A stretch of DNA of 62,608 bases, from assembly GCA_003693705.1 (NCBI GenBank), contig RBZT01000508.1:1-62608 (forward strand), written 5' to 3'. Of the stretch, positions 578 to 58,772 are shown piece after piece (position 1 is the stretch's first letter; each line of letters starts with the position of its first letter). A program made the position numbers and the translations under genes. The notes under the pieces are model-generated. The model was not told the DNA's origin. It ran no database searches and worked only from the letters and a program-made list of their open reading frames with translations. The stretch comes from Polymyxa betae (Eukaryota; Endomyxa; Phytomyxea; Plasmodiophorida; Plasmodiophoridae).

Positions 578-1009
578 GCCGTAACGGAGTTTTGAAACAC
601 GGTCGCGTCCAGACGCGCTCTAAAACTAAATTTTGAAAGCCCGCCGTTTGCGCAATTTGCGCAAAGGATTTGGATTTATATTTTGCGACGCTTTGCGCGG
701 TGTGATTTTTTTCTGCGCACTGTTTGCGATTTAATCGTTGGCTTTGCACGACAATTAGTGGTCGCCATTCGCTCAGTTTTTATTGGATTGCTCAGATTCT
801 TGGATATCTTGCAGCGCCATGTCTAAACTTTGGAACGCAGTCATCGTGAATTGCCTAGAGCTGCACGCATAACGGCAAAGTGCGAAAAATCTACAAAAAA
901 TTAGAGATTTTGCATTCCTTTGCGCCGATTGCGCAAAATGCGCAGAAATTTTTGCGGTGCTGTCATACAGAGAAAGCGACTGTGGCATTCCTAGCTGCTG
1001 CAATCGCCC

Positions 1010-1990
1010 ATGTCTGCTAACTCACGATGGTTTATGGCCCGAACAGTATCGCTCTTGGGACCGGCGACGGACACTCAGAGATGGCATAAGCGATTTCGCA
1101 CCCTCTTTGGTGTTTCATTTCAGATCATGATTTCACTCTGGGAGCTTTTACAGTTCAATGCCCCATCACAGTTTCATAGGGAGCATCTACTATGCGGGCT
1201 GTTTTTCCTTAAGGTGTATCCAGCAGAGACTGTAGCGACCTGTGTTTTCGAGACAACAGGAAAAACGTGGCGGAAATGGGTCACTATTGTTGTTCAAGCT
1301 ATCTCTGAGCTTGAATTGGTACGTACAATAAACAATTTCAGAGTTAAAATTGGGATTGAAAATGGAGCCATGATGCAGATCATAGAGAATTTGGATTACA
1401 ATAATTTGGTTCCATGCCCGGTTAAAATACTGAATGTGTTGACATATTTTCTGGGATGGCCGCTTTGAGGATTGGGACTGCGATCAACCATCCTGTTATG
1501 TCGACGGAGTTGATTTCGCTGTTTTTGAACAAACTGTTTGGACAAAGGATGACTTCTCTCACAAAATGAAGCATGTCGCACTCCGTTATGAAGTGGCAAC
1601 CGCTTTAGGATGCTCAAAAATCGTGCATATTGCAGGTGCCCTATCGCCGGTCTGTGGCCAGATTTGAAACTAGCACAGCATCATATCATCCGTCGTATGC
1701 TGGATGATGAAATGGCTTGTGCAGATTTAGGTTACCGAGATGGTTGTGCTCGAATGATGACACCTTTCCGAAACCCTAACCCTTCTGAAAAAAATTAACA
1801 GCGAAATGCATGTGATTGCAGCTCGGCATGAAACAGTGAATTCCCGATTGAAGACGTTTGGTTGTCTTGGTGTGAAATATTTTTCATGGGCGCGAGTCTC
1901 ATCCGACTGTGTTTACCGCCTGTGCCAACCTCCTTCAGCTGCTGTTGGCAGAGGAGCCTCTTTTTGACTGGCGAGACTCTGTTGCAAAGT
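1010..1990 (+). pseudogene. Degenerate DDE transposase, Harbinger/IS5-like
   Basis: The first segment (1010 to about 1320) reads as a typical N-terminal region of plant/protist Harbinger- or IS5-type transposases, with a helical stretch around HLLCGLFFLKVYPAE and a FRKW-like TGKTWRKW. After a probable intron or insertion, the catalytic core continues from about 1463 as RFEDWDCDQPSCYVDGVDF, the first Asp block, followed by a HKMKHVALRYEVA stretch. The frame breaks near 1662: the second Asp region (LWPDLKLAQHH) is in another frame, and the final block with the catalytic Glu (AARHETVNSRLKTFG, from about 1820) is in a third. A stop follows near 1970. The order of blocks is right but the frames disagree, so it is a dead copy unless several introns are used. 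No terminal inverted repeats were found by eye. Confidence 0.6.
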
Positions 1991-2164
1991 TCAAAAATAA
2001 CAATTAAAAACCAGCCCTTTATTCATTGGAATACAGATAAAATCGTGTCTGATGTATTTTGTGGAAATTACCGGAGCCTCCAGGGTATCTTTGATGAAAA
2101 AATGTAAGTGGCCTGAAAAGATAGGTACGTTTGTATAGAGTTCATTAAAAGATACGTAGACACA

Positions 2165-2580
2165 GCCACCCACCCTCGGCCTCCGTAGAACTGCAGCTTC
2201 CGTTTCCCTGATTTACTGATGAATTCACATACCGACTTATGCGGTGCCATGAGAATTCCTGCTTCAGACGGTGAACGCTATATGATGACCATTCTTGATC
2301 AGTATACTCATAATGCGGAAACATACTGTATTAAGGATAATTTCAGGCATTTGCTTGCTTCGAACGGTATCGCAAACTTGTGCGAAACCAGCACAAAGCA
2401 AAATACAGTTAGGCGTCGTTGGCAGAAACCACAGGAATTCCTGTGGTTTCTGCCCGCATTGATGGAGGCGGCGAATGCAGCTCAATGAAACAGTTTGTTA
2501 AATGACAAAGGCATTTGCTTAGAGCGTACAATGCCATATAGCTCCAAAGAGAACCCTAAATCGGAGCGACGCTGTTAACT
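2165..2580 (+). pseudogene. Ty1/copia integrase fragment
   Basis: Reading in the frame of position 2219, the sequence gives a pre-integrase tail (RNCSFRFPDLL) followed by NSHTDLCGAMRIPASDGERY and LDQYTHN, matching the copia integrase block HTDLCGPM..S..G.RY..T..D.YS. A later block in another frame (from about 2500: NDKGICLERTMPYSSKEN, then PKSERR) matches the copia stretch NGI..E.T.PYTPEQNG..ER. The two blocks are separated by a 34-bp palindrome and a stop, and there is no reverse transcriptase, gag or LTR in the window. This is a short, broken remnant. Confidence 0.6.
2421..2454. repeat. Perfect 34-bp palindrome
   Basis: The 17-bp arm starting GGCAGAAACCACAGGAA is followed immediately by its exact reverse complement, with no spacer. 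It sits inside the copia integrase remnant, where family members have ordinary coding sequence, so it probably arose after the element died. It would extrude as a perfect cruciform or hairpin. Confidence 0.9.
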
Positions 2581-3139
2581 ACCGCGACCAGGGATAGCCT
2601 GATCCAAATGGATGAGATCCAGGACTCCATTGGTAGATTTGACTGCCAAGAAGGTTCCGTCCTTCTATCTGTCCATGAATATCACGACAAACACGCGGAT
2701 CCTCTGTGCAAGAAGCCCCTAGACGCGTTCTTCGACTGAATTGTTGGATTGTACAGAGAGCTGCATGATCTTCCACACAATGTATGACGAGATTTTCTGC
2801 TTTTAGAATATAGCGGGTCGCTGCTGCTGTCGTCGTTCTAGTAAAACCACTTTCAAATATCTGACGTAATTCTAGAAGAATTCAAATCTGGAACATAGAA
2901 AATGCAAATTATCTGCGTTTTTCCCTAAGAAGGAACAAACTATCCTTGGATTTTCTGTGGTCAGGTGAACATCCCCGTTTTATTTTGCCATGCTGATATC
3001 ACTCGTCAAAAGTTTGCGTCGAATTGTCGATCAATTCTGCAGCAAGATCGGATGCGAGTTTGGCTTTCTCCAGGACTTTCGTTCGCCCCTCTTCATGTAA
3101 TTTGAAACAGATTTAGCTCCAGTATGCCAACAAATGTTA
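2581..3139. other. No recognisable gene
   Basis: Open frames of 60-65 codons exist but show no family resemblance. The segment 2579-2776 may be further transposon debris, because it directly follows the copia fragment. AT-rich sequence runs up to the phosphatase stop codon at 3140. Confidence 0.4.
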
Positions 3140-4639
3140 CTATTGACAGACATTATAGAATTGCATCGTATTTAAATCCATATTAAAGCTCTCCCTAGCA
3201 TGTGCCAGATCTTGGGCCCCAATCAAACCCGCCAAGAACGCTTCAATGCTCGCCTCCAGATAACTAAGAAGAACAGTGAAAATTAGCCGGCGTTCGCACG
3301 GTCGGTATCACTTATCAAAGACGAAGATGCCCTGATCTCGAAGTTCCTTGCGCCTGTAAGAATTTTATTCCTGTCAAGCTGCATACTGAAAAAGTTTACC
3401 TCTTGGGTGAGGTCTTGGGATTGTTATGCTTATCAACAACATCGTGAATCAATGACAATGCCACCTGATGATTGGGCTCCTTCAGGACCTGACGCATGAA
3501 CTGAACATCACCTTCGCCGCTATCTCCTATCAATACAAATCTATATCTATGTCAGAGGATGACGCAAGCATGATGTTCAGGACGAACTCGTAATCTGGAT
3601 AAAACTGCTTGTACGCCATGTAGTTGCGGAACTTGCCTCTAGCCTTGCCGCCGTTGGTCCAGGCGATGCTGGTTGCCGCAATAACTGTGATATTGGGGAA
3701 TCCTTTCTCGAGCAGTTGAAATTTCGTCCACCATATGAACAGACGGTTAAAATCGTCAGGCCGCGCCGTCAAGAACGCCACATTGTTCCACATCGGCAAA
3801 CAGCCATGGAATGAAAAGTAGAACATGCGAATACCGGGATAGACAGCGACGCCAGGGAAGCTCTGATCGTTAAGACTCGGGAACAGAGTGTCGTCGATAT
3901 CAGAAAGCACCTTTATCGATCGACGATTGTGGCTCGCAAGCTGCGCGTGAATGTGGGCCACGACGCGATCCAACATGGCCTGGACATGCGATAAAACGAT
4001 TGGGACAGCTGCGACGAGCTCGTACAGGACTGAGAATCCGTGAGGTCGGAACCAGCTTGTCGTCCAACGCATTGCGTAGCTGTACGAGATCGCTGAATGT
4101 TGTTGATGTGATGATTTCCAAGAATCTGAAACAACCTCAGTAATTGGTAGCGGAAACACCGATGCGCCAGACTTCGCCTGTCTATCCGGCCTGGATAAAT
4201 CATCCAGATCCCGGACGTAGGCGACCTTCTCGTCCAGCGTCATTGTTGTTACGTTCAGAAGTTCACTGATACATGTTTAGTGCTGGGACGTACTGGCCCT
4301 GGTTGATAAAGCGCGAACCTGTCCAATCTTTGCAGAGGTGGTGCGTTCGTTAACAGATTCCTGGTGCAGAGCACGGTCATGATTACGGCCATACCGGCGA
4401 ACCTCTGCCCGATCCAGGCCATCGCCATCAGCTCGATACCAAAATGACAGGTCAAGTTCGCCAGGCAATGGGATAACTTGCTCGCTCAGAATCGCTGTGA
4501 AGTGTGCCATGATGTGCAACAGTCCGGAAACTTTTATGTTCCAGAAAACAGTTCGAGGTTGAAAGGTGTAATGATAGCTGACACCGAGCAACCGGCAGGT
4601 GTAGCGGATGAAATCGTCGCAAACCAACATGGTCAACAT
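3140..4639 (-). CDS. DUF2183/APP1-like phosphatidate phosphatase family protein
   Basis: Multi-exon gene read on the minus strand. The N-terminal exon carries the conserved block CDDFIRYTCRLLGVSYHYT. The central exon carries SDIDDTLF (near 3885), the DxDxT nucleophile motif of HAD-type phosphatases found in APP1/DUF2183 proteins, then VAVYPGIRMFY and FLTARPDDF. After an intron near 3535 comes IGDSGEGDVQFMRQVL, the late HAD Asp motif with the GDSGxGD signature of the family. The tail (VFDNYLEASIEAFLAGLIG) follows another intron of about 48 nt. In yeast App1 this fold dephosphorylates phosphatidate at endocytic sites. Activity here is inferred from intact Asp residues. The start is uncertain: a possible 3' splice site precedes the first exon near 4670, so an upstream exon may exist. 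Its 5' end faces the CH-WH2 gene at 4966. Confidence 0.75.
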
Positions 4640-24278: not shown

Positions 24279-27200
24279 ATGGGTGGCTGGAAAAAGGAGT
24301 TCCAAAGCATTTTGAGCCGGCTGAAGCGTGAGCCTGGATATGTCTACTTTAAAGTGGCAGTCGATCCAGTTGGGCTGCATATTCCCCTTTATCCATATCT
24401 CATAAAATGCCCAATGGATTTGGGTACCGTCGAGGTATGATGCTCTGCGAACATTTAAGTGTTTGGATTGGAAGAAAGGCATTATTCAGCATATTCGTCC
24501 CCTTTTTATTCAACGTCTACAACCGACGCATGTAATATTTTAGGCAAAACTATCTTCAGGTGCATATGAATCGCAAGCTCCAGCCGCAGTTGATGTTTTG
24601 ACCTGTTTCAACAACGCTTTATTATTCAATGGCCCATCTTCTACTGGCTCCGATGTTTACAAATCAGCCAAGTCAATGCGAGGGACTTTCGCTAAATTGC
24701 ATCGTTCAAAATTTGGCTCGGATCCGCCTTACACTGGATTCCACGTTTCTGCACCAGACCCTCTTCCTGAAGAAGAACGTGTTGAATTGACGAAACCGAA
24801 CGTCGCGATTTTGATGGATATGCTAGATAGGCTTAAGAAGAAGTACAAGAAGGCCCTTGAGCCTTTTATTTTCTGTGTCGATCCGGAGCGATATCCGGAT
24901 TACTATAAAAGAGTCCCGAATCCCATCGCTCTGTCTGTTGTTGAGGTCAGGGGAGTCAATCTCTCGATTTTGTTCGGTTCTCTGACATTTTTTTAAGCTG
25001 AAAGGCTGATCCTCTGGTTACTTCTTTTTGGTTATCTGGTTTGCGTGAAGAGTCACTCTTTGCTTGGCGTGAACAATCACTCTTTGATGCGATTCACTGT
25101 TTTATATGCTACATAATTCTCACTCGTTTATTATTTCGCTGTCTTTTTTCACTCGCATCAATGGAGCTTGTGGTTAATGGGCCCCAATCTAATCATTGCT
25201 TTAGGCCAAACTTGAGCTTCATGGATACGAGATGTTTGGGCATTTTGCAGCAGAAATTCGGCGGATTTGGAGCAACTGTCAACTATACAACGGACAGGAT
25301 AAACTCTCAAGGCAGGCAGGAAAGATAGCTGCAAAATTCGAGAAATACCTCGGCAAAGCTTTGGACGATATGCGGTCTATTGTTGTGATTGATGATGGTC
25401 CTGCTAAGAAGGCGGCAGCAATGGTCGTTCTCCCTGTTTCATTGGCATCTAGCACTCTCGTCGACCCACAGGTTGTTCCAAAAGCTGAATCTCCACTAGC
25501 ACCATCGGCAGCTAAGCCTAATTCCGGTCTCCCCGCTAGTATTGAACCCGAAAAGCTTCCAGCTCCACCTCAGGTAGGCTGTTGCTTCTGATCTGAATCG
25601 CAATACTCATTTCGTTTAGAAAGCTAAACGGGATCAGTCGATTACACTAAAATTGGCTCTTTCATCGCGACCTCCGTTCAATAAAGCCGCTTGTCTCGAC
25701 ATAATCAACAAGCTCATCAAAGACAAACGCTCCCAATTGTTTCGAGATCCTGTCCCCGACTCAGTTCCCGGCTATCGCGATGTTATTGATCGACCGATGG
25801 ATCTGAAAACAGTTCGGGTATTCTAGCTGATTTACCCTGATGTGAGAGGCTTACCGTTTGTAGGGGAATATTCAAGCAGGGCGCTATGAAAGCAATGATG
25901 ATTTCGTAGCAGATGTGGCTCAGATTTGGGAAAACTGTCGCACTTTCAATGGACACTCCCCCATTACTGATATAGCCAATGTTCTCGCTACGAAATTCGA
26001 GCGAGATCTACTTCCATTACTTGATGCTGAGTATCCGCCTGTTTCTCAGGCGTCAAAACTTTCAGCACCACCCCCGAAACCAAAACAGCCCAAAGTTCAG
26101 CCGCCCAAAGTTCAGCCTCAGCCAGTTGTTGTCGAAGAACCAGTTCCAGTGAAAGTGGAACCTACACCTCCTCCTGCTTATTCTGGTCCCATTCTGCCTT
26201 CAATTCCTATTCTGCCCACTGCAGCTGATGCTTCACTAATATGTATTCCCTCTCAGCCAATGACCAGGACCTCTTCTCGTCTTTGCTCGACGATTCTGCG
26301 TTCTGTTATCTCAGTCGACATGTCTGGGGATTTTATGGATCCCCTTGACCCTGATATGTATAATTATGTCGGATATGACGAGTACGTTAAAAAGCGGATG
26401 GACTTGAAAACGGTCAGAAGGAATCTGGACACAGATCGCTATCCTACACCAAACGATTTTTTTGCCGATCTCAATTTGGTGTTTCTCAATGCCCTCACAT
26501 ACCCTGGCACTCCATTGCTTACCAAAATTGCTGCCAGGTATCTGTACTTACATGCTGAAACCGGATTTCTAGAGGCTTTTCCTGGAGCCAATTCCAAGCA
26601 AAACCTCAAACAACCGTGGGTCCAAGCTGCTAGGACTGCTCTGAATGAAGTCAACGCTTATGATTTCGGAAGGCTGTTTGCCGAACCAGTAAATCCCATC
26701 GTATTCAATCTTCTTGAATACTACGATCGTATTGAGAAGCCACGAGATCTCATAACTGTTACAAGGCGTCTTAATGCTGGTATTTACAGTACAGCTAGCG
26801 AGTTCCTTGCGGAAGTTGACCTGATTTGGTCCAATTGCATGCTCTATCATGGTGACACGAATCCTGATCTTACCGATGTTGCTGTTAACTGTCGAACTGT
26901 CTTTTTGGAATCGTTTGATCGCGCTCTTTCTGGTGTTTCAACGTCGGAATCTACTTCAACAGAACTGACATCCCTTCCTCCTGTCACTGGGGAATCAACT
27001 CTTCCGCCTCCCAAAGCCCCTGCAAAGCGACCGGTGCCCACACCTGCTGTCCATCTAATTCGGCGTCTCAAGAAGATGGATACTCAACAGGTATTCCACT
27101 TTCCTGTGGACCAAGCTCTCTATCCCGAATATAAAAATTTCGTTGAGAAGCCGATGGATTTGGGGACCATTGAAGCGAAATTATTGGAAGGTGGCTATTT

Positions 27201-28005
27201 TAAAGCTGAGGATTATATCGCTGATGTTCGACTGATTTTCACAAACTGTTCAGCATATAATGGTGAAGGGACTCCTATTCGTACACTCGGAAATCGTATG
27301 GCTGGAGTTTTCGAGTCCCATCTAGAAAAAACTGACATTCAGGCATCTCTGGATGAAATTCGCATCAAACTCGAACAGAAACGAGAAGAGAAAATTCGAA
27401 AAGAAAAAGAGAAGGAAGAGAAGAAAGTCGCCATTCAACAAAAAGCTGCTAAGCAAGCCTCGGAATCTGCAAAACGAAAAGCTGATGGCGGTGATGTACA
27501 TGGTCCGCCTCAGAAAGCCGCTAAGATTGACCATAGTAAAGCCAGGAGACCGTTGCCACCCGTACCGAGTGCGGTCTCAGATGAGCTGGTGTTCAAAACT
27601 TTACCCCCAAGAATCCCCATGCCTGTTTCAGTTCGTAAGAAGCTGTTGCCGTTAATACGCTCCCAAATCAGCACCTTAAAGTTGATACCAAAATCGATGT
27701 TATCTTCAAATTCAACTGACGGTCCAAAGACTGCTGAAGCTGATAAAAGCAACGAAGAAGCGGTACAACTTCTCGCTAGGGGATCAAATGGGATTAAGTT
27801 TCGGCTTGGTGCCAAGTTCAAAACAAGGACCAGACCTCAGAAAGAAGTCAGTTGTTCTCGCGCCGGTCCTGTTTTTGCTAATTCCATGGACGCTGATGAT
27901 GCGATGAATATCGATTCCTACAGCCAATGGGATTCGAAGGTTCAGTCATGGCTTCAGAATATGCAGTCGGAATCAAACACTTCAGTCGATTGTTGGGCAA
28001 GATAG
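24279..28005 (+). CDS. Protein with six bromodomains (polybromo-like)
   Basis: At least five exons. Bromodomains: BD1 (24285-24700, split by an intron of about 108 nt) with CPMDLGTVE and FNNALLFNG. BD2 (about 24800-25360, split by an intron of about 250 nt) with IWSNCQLYNG. BD3 (about 25640-26025) with IDRPMDLKTV and IWENCRTFNG. BD4 (about 26260-26560) with MDLKTVRRNL and FLNALTYPG. BD5 (about 26605-26935) with IEKPRDLITV and IWSNCMLYHG. BD6 (about 27035-27340) with VEKPMDLGTIEAKL and FTNCSAYNG. The acetyl-lysine-binding Asn is kept in BD1, 2, 3 and 6 but is Pro in BD4 and His in BD5. A basic KEKEKEEKK region and a short tail follow, and no BAH or HMG domain is visible. Six tandem bromodomains recall PBRM1 of PBAF/RSC. 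A chromatin-targeting role is inferred. Confidence 0.85.
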
Positions 28006-43500: not shown

Positions 43501-46500
43501 GATAATCAGAGTCAAGGTTGCTAAATTGCCGATAATGATTGCTGCCTAAGTCCATAAGAGCATTGTTTCCTCCTTTCAGCGATCCTGATAATGAAAGCCA
43601 TCGTTTTTGAACGTCATTCCAAACCTACACGGCCTATAAGAAAAACAACTGCGATGCAACCATGGTTGACCTCGGTACCTCTAAAATGTCGTTGATAGCG
43701 CCGAGACAAGTAACTCGCTGCTCTATCAAATCAGCAACGCAGCTTGCATAAGGCGATGAACGCATCGAAGTTAGGGTGGAGGCCTGATCTGAAACGACAG
43801 AGAAAATTATCGCCCAGTTGCAGATTACATCGCCACTGAATTGAAATCGCAGATCTCGCAGTTCATTTTCCATTTCTTCAAGGCATCGCATCTGGTAGCG
43901 CTCTGTTCAACAATAAACAAGAACGGAACCATATGATTACCAAAGCATTCTCCCCCTACAGAAATAATGTCAAAATAATGGGATGCGCGACACCAACGTA
44001 AAATCAAACGAAACGAAACAATCAGAAATGCGATTCAAAAGTGACCTGGGCTTGTTCGACAATGGAATGAATTTGGTCTCGAATCTTCAATAAATGACCA
44101 CCACAAGACCACACATCAGCAACACTTAGCTCTGACCAGACGGTGACATTTGCTGTGTCACCGAACAACAAGGCGACTATTTGTTTGTGATGAACAGATC
44201 GCAAACCCGACGCATGAAGAGCCACGACAATGCTGTTTATCGACAGCAAAAACTCTACACGCTTGAACAAGACAGTATGCGCATCGTAAAGCCGGATTGC
44301 ATTTGGCATTGCCATTAATGTCGTTTGTAGTTGTGTTAACGCAGAACGAATCGTCGATTGCCCTACAATAGTACATTAGCAATTGACTGCATCAAGATGC
44401 CAAATACCAGAATGAGCGAGCTTCAGTTGCCCAAGGTCGTGTAAAACGGAACAGACTGGCGAAAGCTTGGACCAGAGAGATCTTAGATCACATATGTCAC
44501 TGTCAAGAGCTTCAAACATCTTTTCGCAATCGTAAATATCAAGAAGAGAAGACGAGGCCTGAAAAATGTCAGGCTGAAGACAGCAGAATTGGACAAATAG
44601 TGACCTCGGCCTCAGCTTCATGAGCGTTTTCAGAGCTGGCTTCAGAGATGAACTGAAGAGCATGGGTAACAGAAACTGCTTGTTGACGTAGATTAGAAGA
44701 TCGCTTATAAAAAAGATCCAATAAGAAAACGGCTTGGTCAGCTTGACATTGACCATCAACGGGGCGTTTTTGTTGCCATTCGTCGTTAAGTTGATGGGTG
44801 GCGGCTGCACAAAATGGCATGAAAATGGGATTAAAAAGGTGCTAGCAGCTAACCAATGAGAGCATGGCGCTCAGAGTTGAGATTTACATCGATAAGGTGA
44901 TAAACGTTTCGCAATTGCTGAAGACGTATTTGAAATATCTGTCCAACAGCGTCATTAGTGGATTCAATCGTTTGAATAGATGGCGGCATGTCCGAAGAAG
45001 TTAGAAATCTCGAACAAGAAATTATCAAATTAACGCGTTCTCCCCAAGTTGATAAGTGTTTCTGGACAGAGCGCAGCAGATCGAGCGAGATACATAGCTC
45101 GGGGACGGGGACGGAATGTAGCCGTGATGTCATCGCCTCTAATCGGGAACGAGTTGTCGAAAGAATCTCATAAACCACACGCTTCTCTTGAGAAACCAGC
45201 GTGTTTAAATGCAATGTAATCTGGCGATTGATGGAAGATATTCGGTCCTGAACAAGCAGAATCACAAAAAGCACACACACAGAATAGGATGTCCGACTTC
45301 GATAAGAGGGTGAATGTTCTGAGAAATTATTGTGATGGCGCCGATATGATAGTCGCACCGATCAGATAAAAATCGATCGCGATCTGAGCATAGCGAATTT
45401 AACATCGAGCGACAGCTGTGAATATCAGGGATTTTCAGTATGACATCCTTCTCATCGATGTCTAAAAAACTTTGAAACTTCATAATTTCAGATAAGTAAT
45501 CACTGGAAGATTTCAACCAGCCGCTAAAACTTGCCAAACAAGAAATGATAGGATTTAAGTCATCAACAGCGGCATGAGAATTTAACATTGGACTCGGAGC
45601 GTGCAACTTCGATAAACTAACAAACGGCCAAATGAACGCTTCTAGCTGTTGCATCCTAACAGCCAGCTCAAGGATGATTCGACGAAAAAGAGCAACGCTT
45701 ACAGCAAAAGACGCGCTTCATGAAGAGATGGACTGAAAGTCAAGACGTTATTGCTTATCTCAACTTGGATCGTAATAGTGGGGCGATTGCGCGCTTCAGT
45801 AAGCCACTTTTGAATTAAAATCGCAAAACGCTCGCGAAGTTGATTCTGAACAATATGATTGATACGGGCTAGCCATTTGCCACAGTTGACATGATCCGGA
45901 TGTTGGATAACAGAGTGAACATGAACCTGAATGTCTTTCATAAGCTGGGAAACGGTGTCCCCATTGCATTCGGCAATCGAGCGACATAAAGAGCCGATAG
46001 CGGACTCGGCGATGGAAACAACCTCGTATGATGATTGAAGAGAAGCGACAGCATCCGCAACGCAATCGATCGCTTCTTTAAGACGAGAATCGCTGGTTCC
46101 CCAACGTAAAGTTGTTAGATTCCGGATAGCAGTTTGTGATTTAAGTTTAAGTTCGGATAGGACCAGTGAAGGACCGGAATCGTTGCTCATTCGTGTTATC
46201 GAACAAAGGTAGGCATGGAGGATATCGTTCAAGCGCACAGCAAACGGCTGTTTCGATTTAGCTTCGCTGCATCGAACACGGATATCGTAAGGAATGCGAA
46301 GCTCAAGGGCAGACAGAGCCCGGGCCTCTTTCAGCAAAGCGGATAAGGCATTGCTGAAATTAACGTCTGGAATCAGACGTTTACGGGCAGCTGGAATACG
46401 TAATAGAGCGTCGTCAAGCGAGAACAACACGGACGATGATACTGATTTCCAGTTCTCCAGCTCAGCATCCCCATGCCTGTGCAAGCGCTGCCAGAAGTTA

Positions 46501-48793
46501 AAACACAATGAAAAATGATCCAATTTTATGAACGGTACCTGCCTGAAAGCATCACAATCATGCTTCAGAGCAATACCATCAACATGATGCGTCCAACGAG
46601 GGCCAAGAACGCTGCTGATTCGTTCAAGCCAAAGGTCCATGTTTCGCTCAATACCGCGGCTGTAGATACGTCAACACAGATTGAAATAGAATGAAGGAAG
46701 TCATACACCCAAAGCAGAATGCCAGTAATCGTAGGGACATTTCTTGCACGACACGACCTGGCCATCTTGCCGCTATAAAATCCAAGATCATAGCGTTCCT
46801 GCAGAGATTGCAGTGCTTGACGAGCACATGATAATAAGCATTCCTGATAAGGAACAAGAGCTGTTTGAATTTGGGGTCGAGCTAGAAGTCCTTTGAAACG
46901 AGAGCAAACAGCAAACATGACGTCAGTATCATTAGACGCCTTGTCCAGCTCTGAACGGATTCGCTGTTCCAGTTCCGATTCCAAATTTTCGATTCGTTTC
47001 GAGTACTGGGTTGCGCAAGTGGTATATGCAACTGATTCTAAATCGAGAACATTGACGCCGCGAAATGTCTGCAATGATGATTCCAAGTCAATGCAGTAAT
47101 CAGGGAATGTATCCCGTAAGATGGTCCACAAATCATGATGCGATTTGCGAAGAGTGTGGATCTCAGCCACGCGAACGTTGAATTCGGTTAAGTGTTTGTC
47201 GTCGTATTTAAGCGTGTCGCTAAGCGCCAGTAAGGTTTCACTTCGCTATAACAAAGGCTGAGAAATACGGACCAGCATATTGTTCTGTTACCTGCTGCCT
47301 TGAGCAAGATTGCAATCTGAATTCGCGAATATCGTCGCGAAATGAAGCTCCTTCGGCAAGCCACAGAGTTATGGCGCTCTGAACAGATGATGTCACAGCT
47401 TTAAAATTATCAAAAGAAAGATTGAATAGATGAGTCCCATCAGCCTACAAACAATTCAGAATCTTATCATTTCGTTGAGAAATACCGAACCAAAGTTTGC
47501 AATCGAGCAGCTGTATCCCGGCATAATGTCTGTATAAGTTGCAATGCTCGAGAAATCGGGTAGTCGATACGCTTCACCATCCGCAAATGTACGAATACCT
47601 TACTGATTGCATGGCATAAATCGCTGATATTAGTTGCATAGGTTAAAGTCTTGATCGGGAGCTCTTGTAAAAACTCACAGTAAGCTGCAAAACATTGTCA
47701 GCATGTAACAAATATATATACGATATTGAACATGCACGTTTTTTTGAAGAATAATTACGCGAGCTTATTCGTACCTGTAGTCTTAGCCTTCAAATCGCTG
47801 AATCCGGATTCATTGTGAAATCCCGTTACAACAAACAATCGACGTTTCTCTTGCAGTATTCCCAGCGTTAACTGGACAACATTTGACAGCAGCTGTTGAT
47901 GGATGAGTTCCACAGCAGTAGCTACTGATGCCCAAAAAGAAATCTCGTCTGCCACAGTTCCAAGGCGAGGATCCCGATCTAGCAAAGCAAACTCTTTAAA
48001 TTTCTGCCGCCACTGTGTCACTTTTTTCTGCAAAGCATTCAGGATACGGTCATCGTCGCCAACAGCGGAACAAATTTCTTGAAGAGTGGACTTAGGGCTG
48101 GAATGTAGGTAATTGCAAACCCATTCTGGAAGCTCAAGCGTCGTTGTGGGAATCTTGACGGTAACAGAAGTCCTATTTGTGTCAAATGTTAACATCAGCT
48201 GAAAAACACGATTGTAAACAGAGCAATGGTCAACCTGTTGAGGTCGGATTCTAATTCGGCTAACTTGGCTGAGAAATCAGTCAAGGAGGTGGCCTGATGC
48301 TTCATCAATATGATATGTGCCTTCAATTGATTCGCGATCGGGGTTTTAGACTGGATTGGATAAGCTGCGATCTGATATTGTAGGCCCTCCATGTTCTCTT
48401 CCAGAGGATCATTGTCGATCCGGTAAAAGGCGATGCGTTTATGATTGTCATCCTACACAGATATCTTTGAAAACGATTCCAGAAACCCATAAATTTATCG
48501 ACCGGTTCTGAGGCATTTTGAAACGGAATCGTAGCGGAAAGGGTAGGAATTCGACCTTCACAGGCCGGATGAACAGCAACGATCAGCAGCGACCCATTGC
48601 TGTGTGCTTTACTAAATGCATGGACAGCCGCAATGCTGTCTGGATTCCAGTTGGAAGGACCGACTTCTACGCCAGCGAAACATGATGTGAGACGAGATAG
48701 ATAGGAAATGATGGCATCATGATCCGTAGCCATCTTAAATGATGAGGGTACTGGATCCACAACGTTACCCAAAACAAAAAAGCCCGCCTGCAT
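31531..48793 (-). CDS. DYNC1H1: Cytoplasmic dynein 1 heavy chain
   Basis: One large gene with dozens of short introns, reading right to left. The tail includes [20 protein letters not shown] (family: VLGKGWENHVEGQKLK). The linker ends near 43330 with [16 protein letters not shown]. The motor has four P-loops: AAA1 GPAGTGKTET (42220-42140, split by an intron after GPAG) followed by FNCDENFD and [14 protein letters not shown]2 GDAGSGKST (about 40960-40985); AAA3 GPPGSGKSM (about 39620-39645); AAA4 GTSGAGKTLL (about 38210-38140, intron-split) with [16 protein letters not shown]. The microtubule-binding stalk tip is at 36650-36330 ([18 protein letters not shown]), flanked by coiled coil. The C-terminus [12 protein letters not shown]...RGVALIL matches dynein 1 rather than dynein 2 or axonemal types, as does AAA4. 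It drives minus-end transport on microtubules. The start at 48793 is the first Met of the exon. The upstream Met at 48855 is in another frame. Confidence 0.9.
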
Positions 48794-49409: not shown

Positions 49410-52346
49410 ATGATCCGAAGCTGTAAATGCAACAAACCATATCATAACCTACCAGTGACATCAGCATGCTCAAAATCTGTTTTCTGGGGATCCCAACATG
49501 CACTGAATCGTATATCGCAGTCCACTGACTCAGATACATCTTATGAAAGAGCAGTTGCTATGGGTGAAAAGGGATTGGTCGCGTGCCCAGTTCCAGTACA
49601 ACAGATCCAGCAGTTTCCTCCAATGGCGACATCAGCGGACAATGAAGGCTTCTTTGAAGGGACCAATCATCTGGAATTGATAGCAGTGTGCGTTCTAGTT
49701 GTCTCTGTTGCTCTTCACTCACTTCTACTCTACGTCCATAAAGTTAGTATAGTTTCATTGACGATGTTATGTGAGAACTTGTGCCATTGACAACTGCCCT
49801 AGATCACTCGAAGGCATCGCAATGTAGCACAAATGCTTGATCGAATGTTCCATGGTCGATATCTGGTTGCTGTTTGTTGGTCTTGCTGAATCCGAATCAG
49901 AGCTCATGATATTGGGTCTCATTAGCACGATCCTGTATTTCTGTGAAGCATCGAATCTGTTCTCTCACACTGAGCTTGAACGGATCCATCAAATTCATCT
50001 CACTGTAAATCATTACGAAATGCACATCGTGATGCGTTTAACGTTTGGTCAGCTATTCTTCACTGTGATTGGATGGGTATTTGCAAGTATCTTGCTATTG
50101 GCTACGAGTATCTAGTAAGTACCTCGCATTGTCAAGATATTATGTTTGATCATTTTCAGCATATCGTTCACTTGGAATAAATCAGAGCAGTCCATACCGC
50201 AGCAAAACAGACTACAGCAAGAACTCGATCAAATCAAAAGTGAGTTGGCTGAAACCAGGTTTTGGCTCCTTCCATTTCACTTGGCGAAATTGACCAGAAG
50301 GAACGAGGTTTGTACTACTTCATTGCCTTATCTACCTGCTATAACATATGATGTAGCTTGAGAATTTTGTCAACTACTCTGAGGTCCGCCAACAATTTAT
50401 CGATTCAAACCATTTGCCGAAAAATTACAATTTCGGATACTATCTCCGAAAGTGCAAACGGCATGTCTTTTTGACTTTGGGCGGGATTCACACATCTGCC
50501 TGGATTACGGTAACTGTTGATATTCGTAGAAATTAGGAGTGACTAATTGTATCTAGGTGGCATTTGTACTGTTGCTTGATATGATGTATCGAAATTATTT
50601 CGCATTACTGAGTAGCGTCCCGCAATTCGTGAAAGACTTTGAGTTCTATGCAAATGGAGCGCTGATGTTCGTGTCAAGCGTTGTCACAGCACTTTCACTG
50701 ATTGTTTTCTACAAATGTAAAAACATTCTAAAACATGTAAGAAACCGCCAAACCTGTAGTTGAATTAAGTTTTCCCCAGTTGCAAACATCCGAAATGATC
50801 AAATTCGATGCTCTAGCGAACAACTATATGATTCGGTCTAACTTTGATGATGCTCTGAACGACGATTTGGAGTTTGATGAAGACTCAGGTTAGTTCGCCC
50901 TGTTTACCGCTGTGAGAAAACTTCTTATATCTGTTGAAGGGCTCGCTGAAATGACAAGAAATGCTCGTGTTTACAGCCATGATAAATGGGTGCATGGAGA
51001 TGAGAACCGAAACGTTGTTCAAGGAGTTGCAATTGTTGTATCGGAATACAGATATGAATATCGACCCAACAAGCAGCAGGAACTGTATAGGCTTTGCAAC
51101 GAGCTGTGCTAAATTAGTGACATGTTGATTGTAGGTTCTGGTTCGGGTCTCACCTCGTCCTATTGCGTTTCATCCAGTCGATCTTGGCGATCATGATCAT
51201 CATATGCTCAATTATGGTAGCACACTACGTTGCAGGTGGAAACATCAGTTTCTGCATGATGACAACTGACAGCTTGCAATCAGGAGGAAAAGTGCTATAT
51301 AGTTGGACACCAGTCATTCTGACAATCATGTTCATATTGGTATTCGTGTCGATCGCCTCTGCAATTCCGCTTTATACAATAATTGTTCATGTTGGAGAGC
51401 TGGCAGTACGTTATTTCTAGCTTGCTATTTGGCATCTGTTCGAACGGTTTTTAGGATATCAAAACGGTTCGAGAAGCTGCCAGGAAAATTGAGCAACGCA
51501 GGCACACGGCCAGACAGGCGAAATTGACAGTTACTGCCCCGAAAGCAACCTGTAAGCTCCCAGTTTGTTTGCTACATATCACTAGGTCATGCGAATTTAC
51601 AAGTTGCCAATCGCATGGAAAGAATTCTGATCAGTTCATGGATGGAGTCCCTGATACAATGGCTAATCATTGCGAACCTTGTAGCAGTAGCCATACCCCT
51701 GGTGTTTTCAGAAAATCATTCTGTTCAAAATGCTGGTGATGTCATTACTTTGAGCATTACAGGTAGGCATCTAACCATTCGAGGTCTCTCGGTGCTAATC
51801 TCCCATGTGCTACTCAGTTTTCTTCCTCCTAGAAATTATTATCAGAGGAAGTATTTTGGGATTTTCGTATTTCTTTATTGATTGGTGGACCATTGTTGAT
51901 TGCGTCGTTGTGATTGTGTCGTTTTTGGCTGCGGTTATCCAGTTTTGGTATCCCATCGCCGATATAACGACCGTATTGCTGGGCATGCGTTTGCTTGAAA
52001 GTGGACGAGTCTGGAGGATAGGTCTGATGTCTTGATCACTTGTTAAGTGAGCTAACAATATGTTTCAGCCCGTAAAATCAAAAGGGCAAGGGCTGCGAAG
52101 CAATATCAACAGCAACATCACGATCCTTGGGATTACTCCAAAGATGATAACCCCATGCAACCTACCCAACCATCATACATTCCAGAAGATCATTCTGAAA
52201 AGTATTCATCCTCTGAAATTGATGAAGAGTATACTGATGCACCGAGAAGGGGTCAACGATCCTTAGTTAATGCATCAGAGGACGTCGGGTCAGTTGTTGT
52301 TAGTCTGAACCGAGGACAAGCATCTGAAATATTATCACAAATCTGA
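49410..52346 (+). CDS. MLO-family membrane protein fused to an Hv1-like voltage-sensor domain
   Basis: Thirteen exons with twelve GT-AG introns of 43-60 nt (after 49742, 49854, 50114, 50307, 50510, 50736, 50888, 51083, 51405, 51551, 51762 and 52021). They sum to 2343 coding bases in one frame: 780 residues. Residues about 80-540 look like MLO: first helix LELIAVCVLVVSVALHSLLL, ELMILGLISTILYF (family EELMLLGFISLLLT), NFGYYLRKCKRHVFLTLGG, ELFWFGSHLVLLRFIQSILA (FWFxRPRLxLFLIHFxLF), and SAIPLYTIIVHVGEL (SYxTLPLYALVTQMGS). A basic linker follows, then a four-helix voltage sensor (about 580-690): S1 SLIQWLIIANLVAVAIPLV, S2 VFFLLEIIIRG, S3 WWTIVDCVVVIVSF, and S4 with RVWRIARKIKRAR, the RxWRxxR pattern of Hv1. 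The Asp that gives Hv1 proton selectivity in S1 is Val here. The tail is acidic and Ser-rich. Plant MLOs act as Ca2+ channels. Voltage control here is inference. Confidence 0.85.
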
Positions 52347-52903: not shown

Positions 52904-53255
52904 TGAACCAGCTTAAAGATGATGGAAATCAGAACGCAACGACGAAGATGTTGAATCAAAGACGGAAAGCCTTTTACAGGTGTGAAGAAAGACGCCGAGA
53001 TTCAGATCTGCACACGAGCATTGGGACGGAAATCTTGCAACCGACTCCAAATGGCTAAATATCAAATGTCAATGCCTGCTTAAAACGTGTCATATAATTG
53101 TTAAGAAGTTGGGAGTTGGTTAGTGTGATCATGACACTCGGGATTAATCTCATCCTCGCACATCGAACTCCATTATAGCATCATTTCTGACCCTGAACTT
53201 CCGAACCAGACATCCAATCGCTATTTGATTACAGACTCTAATCTCGACCTGCACA
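52904..53255. other. Intergenic, promoter side of two divergent genes
   Basis: 352 bp with no gene seen. It separates the small basic gene (minus) from the J-protein gene (plus). Confidence 0.4.
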
Positions 53256-53816
53256 ATGGCGATTCGTATATCGACCGTGGCCATGGTTGTCTTCCTGGCC
53301 TTAGCTGTGGGATTCTGTGCAGGCGGCAGGAAGTTCAAGACCTACTATGAGGTTCTAAACATCACGAGATCGGCGTCGACCAGGGATGTCAAGCTGGCGT
53401 ACTACAAAGTCTCGCGAATCAATCATCCAGATCGAAACAATAAGAGTAATGCTGATCGACGAATGGCTGAGGTGAATCGGGCCTATGAAGTCTTAAAGAA
53501 TGTTAACCAGAGAGCTGCCTACGATCTGTATTTGACCATGAATGGAAATGCTCACCATCCTGATTGGGATAAGAATGGAAGTTTCTCACAATGGCAGACC
53601 TTGATGAATATGTTGTATCTCAGCGATTATCATTGGTTCTGGCAGATCACCATCGTTCTGCTGCTGCTAGGAGTCGGATCCGCTCTTCTGGGCGCCGTTC
53701 TCACTCTAATCACACCCATTATGAAATTTGCCAGTTCTTGGACGTTCTGGATCATGCTTGGCATTTCCCTGTTTAACCAGGGATCGACATGGATGTATGG
53801 CGGCAAGAAGAAATAA
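53256..53816 (+). CDS. ER membrane J-domain protein
   Basis: A single-exon 186-residue protein. The signal peptide is TVAMVVFLALAVGFCAGG. The J domain runs over about residues 29-90, with YYEVLNITRSASTRDVKLAY and the essential HPD in INHPDRNNKS, then NRAYEVLKNVNQRAAYD. Two hydrophobic helices follow (about residues 125-175: ITIVLLLLGVGSALLGAVL and WTFWIMLGISLF), and the protein ends GGKKK. The layout resembles small ER-anchored Hsp40s whose lumenal J domain stimulates BiP. With a cleaved signal, the J domain would be lumenal. The lysine tail is not a strict KKxx signal. The stop codon overlaps AATAAA. Confidence 0.85.
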   Translation: MAIRISTVAMVVFLALAVGFCAGGRKFKTYYEVLNITRSASTRDVKLAYYKVSRINHPDRNNKSNADRRMAEVNRAYEVLKNVNQRAAYDLYLTMNGNAHHPDWDKNGSFSQWQTLMNMLYLSDYHWFWQITIVLLLLGVGSALLGAVLTLITPIMKFASSWTFWIMLGISLFNQGSTWMYGGKKK

Positions 53817-54045: not shown

Positions 54046-56012
54046 ATGTCGACGTCGGCGTTGGCTCAGAGGACCCAAGAGAAGCTCATGGAGCGTATCA
54101 AGGCCCTCCGAAAACTCAAGGAAAATCGCAAGTGTTTCGAATGCTTGTCGAAGGTTCGGGCCCTGGCTGTTGAATCGGGCTCGGGATCTCATATGAAAAT
54201 TTTTTCAGAGCCCGTCGTGTGTAGATACGACACATAATACATTTGTTTGTATGACATGTGGTGGGATACTGAGGATGTTCAATTTCCGAGTGAAATCCAT
54301 CTCCATCTCGAGCTTTGCAGTTAGCGAAGTCGAAGCTCTAGAATCTGGGGGCAATAAAGTCGCTCGGAAAAAGTGGCTGGCTGGGTTCGATGGCGAGCAC
54401 CCGCCTTCGGGCAATACTGAACAAATCAAAGAGTTCATTCGTAAGAAATACGAAGAGAACGCCTGGGTGAACAGGTCGGGCAAAACCAAGAGAAAGAGCA
54501 GCAATAAGCCTGAACCTGAACCTTCTGAGCAAGATCAAACTGATGATGATGAAAATTCAGAGGTGATTTCCTGTTTCTTAACAGCTGACTTCCAATTCTG
54601 ATAATGTATTACAGGCTGCTCCAACTGCTCCGGTTGAACGAAGAAAGTCTGGCAGTAACCGACCCCAGACAAAGACACAGTCGGCAGCGCCGCCTGATCT
54701 TCTCGATCTTAATGCTATCTTCTCCTCCCAATCGGCTTCTACGGCACAGGCTCCGAATTTCGGCAGTTCGTTTCCATCACAGCCGAACATGCAGGAAGCC
54801 CAACATGCACAGCCTTTCTCTTCTCAGACGCGCTCTGATTGGGGTGGATTCACCAATCCCATGTTCCAAAATTCGTATAATCAGGCGCCGCAACAGATAG
54901 CCCAGCAACCCCCACAACAACTCGGACAATCGTTCCCGATGGATTCGTTTTTTGGTGCGGCACCTTCGGGCGGCGCCAACCAATATTCGAATGCAATGCC
55001 GCAGGCTGGATATCATCCGAATTCTTCTCCATTCGGAATGACTCCATCACAGCAGCCACAATCAACCCAAATGTCGCATTTTCAGGCAATGGGCCAGAAT
55101 ATGCCCATGCAGCAGCCGCAACAGCAGCAGGCTGATTCGAATATGTCCCGAATACCATTTCCGCAACAAATGGCTGGAGCGAATGGGTTTTCTCCCGCTC
55201 AATCGCAGCCAAAACTGCAGTCGCCATTTGTCCCTTCTGCTCAATCGAATTCCGACCCATTCGCCGATCTTTTGGCTACACAAACGATGGCACCGAATAT
55301 GTCCTCTCTACCATCCAATCGTGGCTCTGTTACTGGTGACGATCTCTTTGGAAACAGCAATCCGCCATACAATTCGCAACATCCGCCCCAACGAAACTCG
55401 TTAACGTCAGGGATCACATTCGGAAATGCAAACGTGGCATTGGGTGGGCAGCAGCAGCCTAAACGTAACTCCATTCCTTCAGATATTGTATTTGGTAATG
55501 CAAGTTTGGAGTTCGGGTCTCCTGATTCGTTTGATGCATCGAATCCGTTTGGGCCACCACCGCCTGTAAATTCAGCACCTGTACAGATGGGGTTCTATCA
55601 CAACCAGTCGCCCAATGTGAATTTCGGGATGGATCCACCCCCGGCCAACAACAGGGCGTATGCCCAACCTGCTGCAAATATGTCTCCATCCCCTTTTTAT
55701 TCGCAACCAGCATCGTCAGTCAATCAGCCCATCATGGCGAGTACGCAGCATTACTCGCAACCGATTCCGATGCACCAGCAGCAGCAGCAGCAGCAGCAGC
55801 CACAATTTGGGCAAGCGCAGGGATTCCCACAGGCGTTCGCTCCAAGGCCAATAGAACAATTTCCATTTAATAACATGCCTGCTCAACCTAATGTTCCGTC
55901 TTACAACATGCAGCAGGTGCCTACTACGAATACGGCCGTTCCAGATTTCTTCAGTAAGCAGCGACCTGTAGACTCTCTGGATACCGACCTAAATTCTAAT
56001 CCGTTCTTGTGA
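54046..56012 (+). CDS. ArfGAP of the AGFG type
   Basis: Three exons (54046-54153, 54209-54562, 54615-56012) give 619 residues. The ArfGAP zinc finger is exact, C-x2-C-x16-C-x2-C-x4-R: CFEC, then CMTCGGILR with the arginine finger, and FRVKSISISSF and IKEFIRKKYEENAW match AGFG1/2 better than other ArfGAPs. The intron at 54154-54208 splits the zinc finger. A Lys-rich and acidic linker follows, then a long Gln/Pro/Asn-rich disordered region with repeated FGNA units, a Gln run (CAG repeats near 55780) and NPF motifs (SNPFGPPPPV and the terminal SNPFL) that bind EH domains. AGFG proteins work in clathrin-mediated cargo sorting. The product is probably cytosolic and endocytic. Confidence 0.88.
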
Positions 56013-56774: not shown

Positions 56775-57105
56775 TGATCATGGTTGAGGTTCATGTCGTT
56801 TTACCCATTCAGCCACAGCTTCGGATCGGCGATTCAGTCGGAGCATTGACGGGTTCCGACTCCGTTCATCGCTGTTGATGCTCGTAGTGGACGATTTACA
56901 TGATCGGTTCAGGTATGTTTTAGTCTTCATGATTATGTCTGTTATCACCATTACTACATAGCCGGTCTTTCAAAATCTGATCAATCATTGTATAGCCAAC
57001 GTTTTATGGAAAGCGCTGGGCAATCTGGCCCGTTTTATGATAAAGGCCGTTTTAGGCTAATTTGTTGAATAAAGGTTGACCGATTGCGATTCATAATGAC
57101 GATTA
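56775..57105. promoter_or_regulatory. Divergent promoter region, RRM and DHHC genes
   Basis: 331 bp between two start codons. AT-rich, without an obvious shared motif. Confidence 0.4.
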
Positions 57106-57879
57106 ATGCTGAGCTTCGTAGGCAATAATCCGGTCGCATTCCATGGGTCGTTCTTCTTCCCATCCCGATACATTGTGGCTGTTGTGACCTTTCTGATTAT
57201 GGCTGCATTACAGATGACATTCATTATCATTATCTGTACAGCAGTTGGGATATGGTCTATAATCATATGCAGCGTCTTCCTTGCTCTTGCCTCTTTAACA
57301 TTCATCATGTCATCGTGCTGTGATCCAGGAATAGTACAACGTCGTACACAGCAGATCGACCTGGCCAGCACATCATTCCTCAAATTCTGTGCGGTCTGTC
57401 AGATCTGGCGTCCGCCTCGATGTAAACATTGTCGTCAATGTGACAATTGCGTCGAGGATTTCGATCATCATTGTTTCTATCTGGGCAATTGTATCGGGCG
57501 ACGAAACCGTCGTTGTTTCGTCCTGTTTCTGCTTCTGACCGCCTTGATGCTGTTCCTAAATACGATAACAGGCGCCATATACGAAGCGTTCACATATTTT
57601 TTACTTTTAGATATAGAACCGATGAAACCGAGTATTGGGGACATATTCTATCGACATCGATCAGGTGCAGCATTGGTTATAGTTGCCGCCATCTTCTGGA
57701 TTATACTCTCATATCTGTTGATCTGGAATCTGATTGTAATTGGTAGAGGTCAGACCATGGTTGAATATATTAAAGGTACATACAGGACTACGCCCAATCC
57801 CTATGATCGTGGTCTCATTCAAAACTTTTGGCTCTTCTTTACCGATCCAATCCCAGAGAGTCAAGTCTACAACACATAA
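57106..57879 (+). CDS. DHHC palmitoyltransferase
   Basis: A single-exon 257-residue protein with four predicted membrane helices. The cysteine-rich domain between helices 2 and 3 (about residues 90-135) has the zinc ligands in FCAVCQIWRPPRCKHC and CRQCDNCVEDFDHHC, then LGNCIGRRNRR. The catalytic DHHC is intact. The usual PWVNN after it is FYLGN here. The C-terminal TTPNPYDRGLIQNF resembles the TTxE and aromatic motifs of the family (TTxP here). It S-acylates membrane proteins at the Golgi or another membrane. The next gene is a tandem paralogue with a broken active site. Confidence 0.9.
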   Translation: MLSFVGNNPVAFHGSFFFPSRYIVAVVTFLIMAALQMTFIIIICTAVGIWSIIICSVFLALASLTFIMSSCCDPGIVQRRTQQIDLASTSFLKFCAVCQIWRPPRCKHCRQCDNCVEDFDHHCFYLGNCIGRRNRRCFVLFLLLTALMLFLNTITGAIYEAFTYFLLLDIEPMKPSIGDIFYRHRSGAALVIVAAIFWIILSYLLIWNLIVIGRGQTMVEYIKGTYRTTPNPYDRGLIQNFWLFFTDPIPESQVYNT

Positions 57880-58016
57880 ACCGACCAATGATTATTATCA
57901 CAAAAATATCTCTTCTAATTGATAGCAAGCAGAAAATGTGGAAGTTTGGAATGGGTTGAGTCCGACTTCCTTCAAATATTATGGATCGGCCAATACAATA
58001 GATAATTACCGACCTC

Positions 58017-58772
58017 ATGATGCTATTCGCCGGTAATAACGCTCTGCTTTGGGGCGGCCGTCTCGTCGTACCGGCCCAGGTCGCCTGGACCGTTCTGTAC
58101 ATCAATTTCCTGATCATTCTGCAATCATGTTTCAGTCTGGCATTGTATGAACGTGTTGGGATGTGGATATGGCTGGCGACCATCCCCCAGCTATGTCTCA
58201 CCGCCATCTACTATCTTCGGGCAGCCTTCACCGATCCCGGCATACTGGCCCGGTTCCTGGTCGCCAATCGTACTGTTCCGGCCCGGTCGCAGCGGTCCCT
58301 ATATCAGCATTGCGACCGATGTCAGATCTGGATTGAACCACAAGTTCGAGCTCGTCATTGCGATATCTGTGATAATTGTATCTCTAATCATAATCATCAT
58401 TCTAATACTCTTGGAATATGTATTGGACACAGAAACTTACCACTTTACGTCTTATTTCTCATATGGGGTAATGTTCTGGTCCTTTCAGATGCCAGCGTAC
58501 TGGCCCTGGCCGTTTATGTCGATCGTGTGTTCTGGACTGAGACGCCCGGTATTGGTCAGCTGTTAATGTTGTCCATATTTGCTATGCCGATGTTGATTAT
58601 TATATGGATGGTGCCGTTATATTCAATCTGTAAGATGATCGCTAAAGGTAGACCAGGATGTAGACCTGATAATCATAGTTGTGGGTTTATATATAATTTT
58701 ATGAATGTATTTTATGAAGAGATTCCTGTTAGCCAGATCAGAGTTGATGCAATACAATCTATACCCAGATAG
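58017..58772 (+). CDS. DHHC-like protein with NHHS active site (predicted pseudoenzyme)
   Basis: A single-exon 251-residue paralogue of the gene 137 bp upstream. Both share the start (LFAGNNALLWGG against LSFVGNNPVAFHG), QHCDRCQIW against FCAVCQIW, CDICDNCISNHNHH against CRQCDNCVEDFDHH, and a similar end (FYEEIPVSQ against FTDPIPESQ). The catalytic tetrapeptide DHHC has become NHHS, losing the acylated Cys and the preceding Asp, while most zinc-binding Cys and the CIGHRN motif remain. The open frame is full length with no stops, so it is not simply decaying. It may act as a regulatory partner of the active copy (inference). Four membrane helices are kept. Confidence 0.88.
   Translation: MMLFAGNNALLWGGRLVVPAQVAWTVLYINFLIILQSCFSLALYERVGMWIWLATIPQLCLTAIYYLRAAFTDPGILARFLVANRTVPARSQRSLYQHCDRCQIWIEPQVRARHCDICDNCISNHNHHSNTLGICIGHRNLPLYVLFLIWGNVLVLSDASVLALAVYVDRVFWTETPGIGQLLMLSIFAMPMLIIIWMVPLYSICKMIAKGRPGCRPDNHSCGFIYNFMNVFYEEIPVSQIRVDAIQSIPR

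Follow-up and report, generated by a model that had tools for sequence, protein, structure and literature searches.

A divergent MLO-like domain followed by a poreless voltage-sensor domain in two predicted genes of one genome

The mode of action of the MLO proteins, and whether they themselves form a Ca2+ pore, is an open question in the field. Plant MLOs carry four conserved extracellular cysteines, a feature of the family, and their tail bears a calmodulin-binding helix with a tryptophan. The plant proteins are presented in the accessible text of two papers as having seven helices and a tail located inside the cell (PMC13360292, PMC8475652), and MLO1, 5, 9 and 15 are reported to be Ca2+ channels once they have been activated by the kinase MARIS (PMC9810639).

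Proteins that possess a voltage-sensor domain (VSD) without a P-loop pore form a short list: Hv1, the voltage-sensing phosphatases, SLC9C1 and TMEM266. The voltage-sensing phosphatases (Ci-VSP, TPTE2) have their VSD ahead of the effector, a cytosolic enzyme. Excerpts of the Hv1 literature describe the role of an aspartate, D112, in the middle of S1 (PMC7910559, PMC13095418) and give R.WR..R as the core of the S4 motif in mammalian Hv proteins (PMC7910559). In SLC9C1, the sperm Na+/H+ exchanger, a transport-type membrane domain is followed by a C-terminal poreless VSD (PMC10620092, PMC13095418), whose charge transfer centre, located in S2 and S3, is reported to consist of Y743, E746 and D767 (PMC10620092). 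The gene discussed here, found in a window of 62,608 nucleotides (the whole stretch of DNA that was analysed), encodes a predicted protein in which an MLO-like domain precedes a VSD, and it would add another effector to this list.

The whole coding span of the MLO–VSD gene covers positions 49410..52346 of the plus strand, as judged from the splice model, its translation and the comparison with a paralog. The model comprises 14 exons and 13 GT-AG introns of 43–97 nt, runs from the ATG at 49410 to the TGA at 52344–52346 and yields a product of 736 aa. The preliminary description was right on the start, the stop, the helices that it named and both junction introns (51406–51454 and 51552–51603); its count of 13 exons and 12 introns and its length of 780 aa no longer represent the best model. 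Automatic splicing by a simple score proposed 24 introns and was replaced by manual, homology-guided splicing, in which the loop was read with the introns 50889–50976 and 51038–51134. The additional intron (50005..50052, plus strand) is 48 nt long, frame-neutral and stop-free, which makes it invisible to the frame test; it is suggested by the alignment of TM3 with the paralog that its removal brings about, and its retention would give a product of 752 aa. It is also the exception among the 13 introns when one is retained and the others are spliced, the remaining 12 each leading to an early stop. The 752-residue model, in which this intron is kept, served as the query for the first Pfam, PDB, protein-database, viral-contig and genome searches, and a Pfam rescan with the 736-residue model had the same outcome. 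Exon 1 (49410..49742, plus strand) encodes an N-terminus that has no counterpart in the paralog, followed by TM1 (residues 91–109). The homology begins only at residue 86, a point that is preceded by 15 residues in the paralog, and for this reason the true start codon of the window gene is uncertain.

The genome (24.4 Mb in 541 contigs) was searched exon by exon. With the window protein as the query, 14 rows were obtained at E up to 0.01, of which 12 lie on the contig of the window and two on contig C403, where the paralog (L009, positions 1000–3838, 732 aa in the model) again has the MLO-like part first and the VSD second. The MLO–VSD order is present in two genes on different contigs of one genome, and it is on this one genome that the conservation of the order rests. 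The paralog matches the window protein in BLASTP at 1e-44, with 24% identity over most of the length and 27% in the MAFFT alignment. Contamination or a chimeric assembly was considered as a source of the fusion and is opposed by the second gene, which is of the same order, only 27% identical and located on another contig.

The MLO-like domain (49665..51405, plus strand, residues ~86–491) has seven predicted TM helices and was recognised by hhalign comparison with plant MLOs. An Mlo profile match to residues 80–540, whose failure was to count against the fusion in the preliminary description, is absent: Pfam Mlo leaves the window protein unmatched even when E is allowed to reach 10, with either the 752- or the 736-residue model. 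In our view this failure is overruled because the paralog does match Mlo, at 27.4 bits against a cut-off of 24 (the barley MLO control gives 695 bits), and because a profile–profile comparison matches the plant MLOs. In the latter, the alignment of the window protein and its paralog was set against 16 plant MLOs and matched them over 190 columns of the N-terminal half with a probability of 97.3% and an E value of 2.1e-11; the score of this half was 83.3, compared to a maximum of 32.8 among 50 column shuffles. The C half, from LFWF to PLYTIIVHVG, is colinear with the plant MLOs and is weak when taken alone (probability 11%), and the VSD part has no match to the plant MLO profile. An AlphaFold2 model of barley MLO built with 16 sequences reached a mean pLDDT of 49 and was not used for a fold search.

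As judged from these comparisons, the first half of the protein is a real but divergent MLO-like domain. Its seven predicted helices suggest the architecture of the MLO family (PF03094, barley MLO type), with which it shares a series of short motifs: ELM-LG-IS before TM2, IH--IF in TM3, F-x-YL/IK before TM4, FWF before TM6 and PLY-----G after TM7. In the window protein the corresponding stretches include ELMILGLIS (129), LFWFGSH (401) and IPLYTIIVHVG (478). The domain departs from the family in its identity of 24% in the aligned part, in a first extracellular loop that is short and free of cysteines, and in the VSD that stands where the plant MLOs have their calmodulin-binding tail. Neither the extracellular cysteines of the plant MLOs nor their tryptophan-bearing calmodulin-binding helix is evident in the window protein, in which the predicted outer loops contain 0, 0 and 1 cysteines and the N-terminal 90 residues contain four. 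Hydropathy gives seven segments ahead of the VSD in the window protein and eight in the paralog, the extra one at 150–168; of the four loops expected inside in the window protein, three are net basic and one (337–408) is net acidic.

Behind TM7, the exon 51455..51551 (plus strand) encodes a basic linker that leads to S1 of the VSD (the loop of residues 480–539 has 11 K+R and 6 D+E) and is followed by the intron 51552–51603. The VSD itself occupies 51604..52100 (plus strand, residues ~524–655, introns 51763–51817 and 52022–52068 included) and consists of S1–S4 with no pore helices after them. Pfam Ion_trans matches the window protein at residues 535–651 (profile positions 2–115 of 241, E 4.6e-11, 42.8 bits), the C-terminal part alone scoring 46.5 bits. 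In the paralog, the C-terminal part alone reaches 28.0 bits against a cut-off of 25, and the match is unlisted in the scan of the whole protein. The S2 helix of the window protein reads F579-x-x-E582-x-x-x-R586, S3 contains D604, and S4 carries R634, E637, R640, R643, R646 and K649. When the C-terminal part was shuffled 20,000 times, the S4 pattern R-x5-R-x2-R-x2-R appeared in 0.36% of the shuffled sequences. The E value of the Ion_trans match, the rarity of the S4 pattern and the recurrence in a second gene place the VSD and the fusion beyond chance.

The two VSDs are 22% identical. Both of them keep the F-x-x-E of S2 and the D of S3, and in both the S4 charges stand at 0, +6, +9, +12 and +15, position +3 being E in the window protein and Q in the paralog; this likeness of spacing is a reading by eye, and the MAFFT alignment gives the S4 helices of the two proteins a different register. 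The interruption of the S4 charge series by E637 and by Q623 of the paralog would suit a VSD that is a relic, insensitive to voltage and retained for assembly or anchoring. However, F-x-x-E in S2, D in S3 and the rest of the basic series, spaced three residues apart, have been kept in both copies at an identity of 22% (VSD) to 27% (whole protein), and we consider such a relic quite unlikely.

The PDB yielded 30 matching sequences for the 752-residue model with E no higher than 1 and 45 for the isolated domain with E no higher than 0.001, among them the voltage sensors of sodium and calcium channels, TPTE2, chains named 'voltage-sensor containing phosphatase', and Hv1. The VSD of the paralog is weak, its best match to a solved structure having an E value of 0.016. 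By score, the voltage-gated Na+ and Ca2+ channels are the top matches of the VSD. A voltage-gated channel of the P-loop type was nevertheless rejected as a reading of the window protein, since the Ion_trans match ends at profile position 115 of 241 and S4 is not followed by the S5-P-S6 pore that these channels have. The ~86 residues after S4 in the window protein contain no hydrophobic segment, and the hydrophilic C-terminal tail that they form (52101..52346, plus strand) has no domain above the cut-off.

The preliminary description also called S2–S4 Hv1-like, and S4 does resemble that of Hv1. The window protein shares with Hv1 a poreless VSD and the R.WR..R sequence in S4; it differs from Hv1 in the attached MLO domain and in its predicted S1 core (residues 540–558), which, like that of the paralog, has no acidic residue (D/E), and this leaves a proton channel of the Hv1 type unsupported. 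That the VSD might itself be the permeation path, as in Hv1, with the MLO domain a mere passenger, appears very unlikely to us: the motif core common to the window S4 and the mammalian Hv proteins (PMC7910559) speaks for this arrangement, whereas the acid-free S1 cores, the absence of tryptophan from the S4 of the paralog and the PDB scores, in which the sodium and calcium channel chains surpass Hv1 (partly because each of them contains several VSDs), speak against it.

The claim that an MLO-type region and a voltage sensor lie in one frame is borne out by the splice model, by the Ion_trans match and by the paralog, which repeats the order. The join between MLO TM7 and S1 holds only two introns, of 49 nt (51406–51454) and 52 nt (51552–51603), and an enumeration at the junction gave eight GT-AG pairs with which the frame stays open as far as the VSD, so that the fusion is independent of any single splice choice. 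Two neighbouring genes, one MLO-like and one encoding only a VSD, could have been wrongly joined, and the ATG that sits just ahead of S1 in the window gene would provide the second of them with a start. The small size of the introns, the eight frame-keeping splice pairs and the same order in the same frame in an unlinked paralog make this highly improbable, and there is a strong inference from the sequence that the MLO-like and VSD parts belong to one gene, presumably read as one transcript. An AATAAA is missing from the plus strand at the join, but also from the stretch between the stop of the gene and 53814, so this says little. A bacterial promoter scan across the junction found two promoters where 0.4 were expected, but the bacterial model is inapplicable to a eukaryote and the result was not used.

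These features suggest an 11-helix membrane protein in which a divergent MLO domain, with seven helices, the N-terminus outside and the C-terminus inside, would come first, to be followed by a short basic cytosolic linker and a poreless S1–S4 sensor in the position of the calmodulin-binding tail of the plant MLOs. The odd number of MLO helices and the cytosolic C-terminus would let S1 start inside the cell, which a VSD requires. Changes of membrane potential would then move S4, the movement would act on the MLO domain through the linker and the tail, and a cation conductance of the MLO domain, probably for Ca2+, would thereby be gated or tuned in a manner comparable to the control of SLC9C1 by its VSD. 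The analogy includes the sensor residues, the reported Y743, E746 and D767 of SLC9C1 being matched by F579, E582 and D604 of the window protein. It is limited by the first domain, which is an exchanger in SLC9C1 and MLO-like here, and by the very long S4 and the cyclic-nucleotide domain of SLC9C1, which are not seen in the window protein. The voltage-sensing phosphatases likewise place a poreless VSD on an effector that is not a channel, but in the opposite order to that of the window protein, where the MLO-like domain is first and the VSD second.

We would give about even chances to the proposal that an MLO-type cation conductance, probably of Ca2+, is under the control of S4 as it moves. Voltage-controlled Ca2+ entry, suggested from the beginning by the analogy with plant MLOs, may fairly be inferred. 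The main competing explanation is that the VSD does sense voltage but drives another output, such as partner binding, sorting or endocytosis, as may be the case for TMEM266, which in the accessible part of a review is apparently no channel and has no known function (PMC13095418). The conservation of the sensor residues in both copies is compatible with this explanation, and the strong divergence of the MLO domain leaves its conductance open. Against it stand the reports of plant MLOs as channels (PMC9810639) and the position of the VSD close behind TM7, a regulatory one, and on balance we regard it as rather unlikely, though it is the most serious of the alternatives.

Control of an MLO-type conductance by S4, if it exists, might extend to a new class of voltage-gated cation channels, with a permeation path in the MLO domain instead of a P-loop pore and gating by S1–S4, that perhaps converts voltage into Ca2+ signals in a swimming cell; this is a tentative proposal that we would place somewhat below an even chance. 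The genome contains a radial spoke protein, which is axonemal (two rows), so the organism, or some stage of its life, probably has a motile flagellum. If an MLO occurs in nature with its own voltage sensor, it would permit a direct test of MLO as a pore, since S4 mutations that shift the voltage dependence of the current would place the pore or the gate in the MLO domain.

No published fusion of MLO and a voltage sensor was found among the open-licence papers listed. One paper has both PF03094 and PF00520 and, in its accessible part, assigns the domains to separate genes; the word 'MLO' is absent from the main text of the 2024 review 'Voltage sensors' (PMC13095418). In the protein database the window protein (region 80–752 of the 752-residue model) had no relative at E up to 0.001 among 8000 scored candidates, and the alignment of the two proteins had none among 8000, the candidates in each search being those that share most words with the query. 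A search with barley MLO, its sequence identical at 100% to the database entry, gave 2876 matches; among the 120 listed, PF03094 was the sole precomputed domain, and the matches with a named organism came from land plants. The viral contigs provided 5 and 55 stretches with a pattern and no relative, and the genome contigs 46 such stretches and no relative, the latter a weak test, as these contigs are prokaryotic. NCBIfam gave two matches, both far below the cut-off. These searches leave room for relatives in eukaryotes whose genomes lack annotation or have diverged too far.

Within the genome, the paralog used as the query gave 11 rows at E up to 1, namely seven of its own, one of the window gene and three on contig C252. 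The three C252 genes match the paralog at 1.4e-16, 1.6e-9 and 1.4e-8 and represent more distant MLO-like proteins. Pfam Mlo has no match at E up to 1 to the six pieces of these genes, while the comparison with plant MLO of the N halves of the whole family of five gave a probability of 96.9% and an E value of 1.8e-10. No VSD was found in the two loci around the C252 genes beyond one row at E 0.40, so that at least two of the at least five MLO-like family members have one; both counts are minimum values, given that the genome was searched one exon at a time. Searches of the genome with Pfam Mlo and Fungal_trans gave no match, and as the 14 control genomes were equally silent this is uninformative. 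Two of the C252 genes are arranged head to head, and one adjoins an ORF that we would call MADS-box-like from its sequence.

At an E threshold of 0.01 the genome contains 33 exon-level matches to Ion_trans, which include the window gene, so the organism possesses a sizeable set of Ion_trans proteins. The profile PF03142 marks chitin-synthase-like sequences in 11 rows and also responds in 4 of the 14 control genomes. A relative of EF1A is encoded in one long frame at C429:38940–40313 and shows 46% identity to human EF1A along almost the whole of its length (the best of five rows); judging by its sequence, it is perhaps an EFL that replaces EF1A and a possible taxonomic marker.

Rfam and tRNA scans of the window returned nothing. 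Upstream of the MLO–VSD gene and running away from it, 45702–48276 on the minus strand contains N-terminal exons of a dynein heavy chain, with Pfam DHC_N1 in three pieces; all eight PDB rows of the piece 45702–46670 are cytoplasmic dynein 1 heavy chain. On the plus strand, a DnaJ-domain protein with hydrophobic segments behind the J domain lies at 53229–53816, and 54197–56012 combines an ArfGAP domain (54197–54598) with a Q/N/P-rich tail that has no Pfam match, an arrangement that reads as AGFG-like. Two adjoining ORFs at 57100–58772 (plus strand) match DHHC palmitoyltransferases, and the ORF at 25864–28005, on the same strand, has four bromodomain stretches and appears from its sequence to be polybromo-like.
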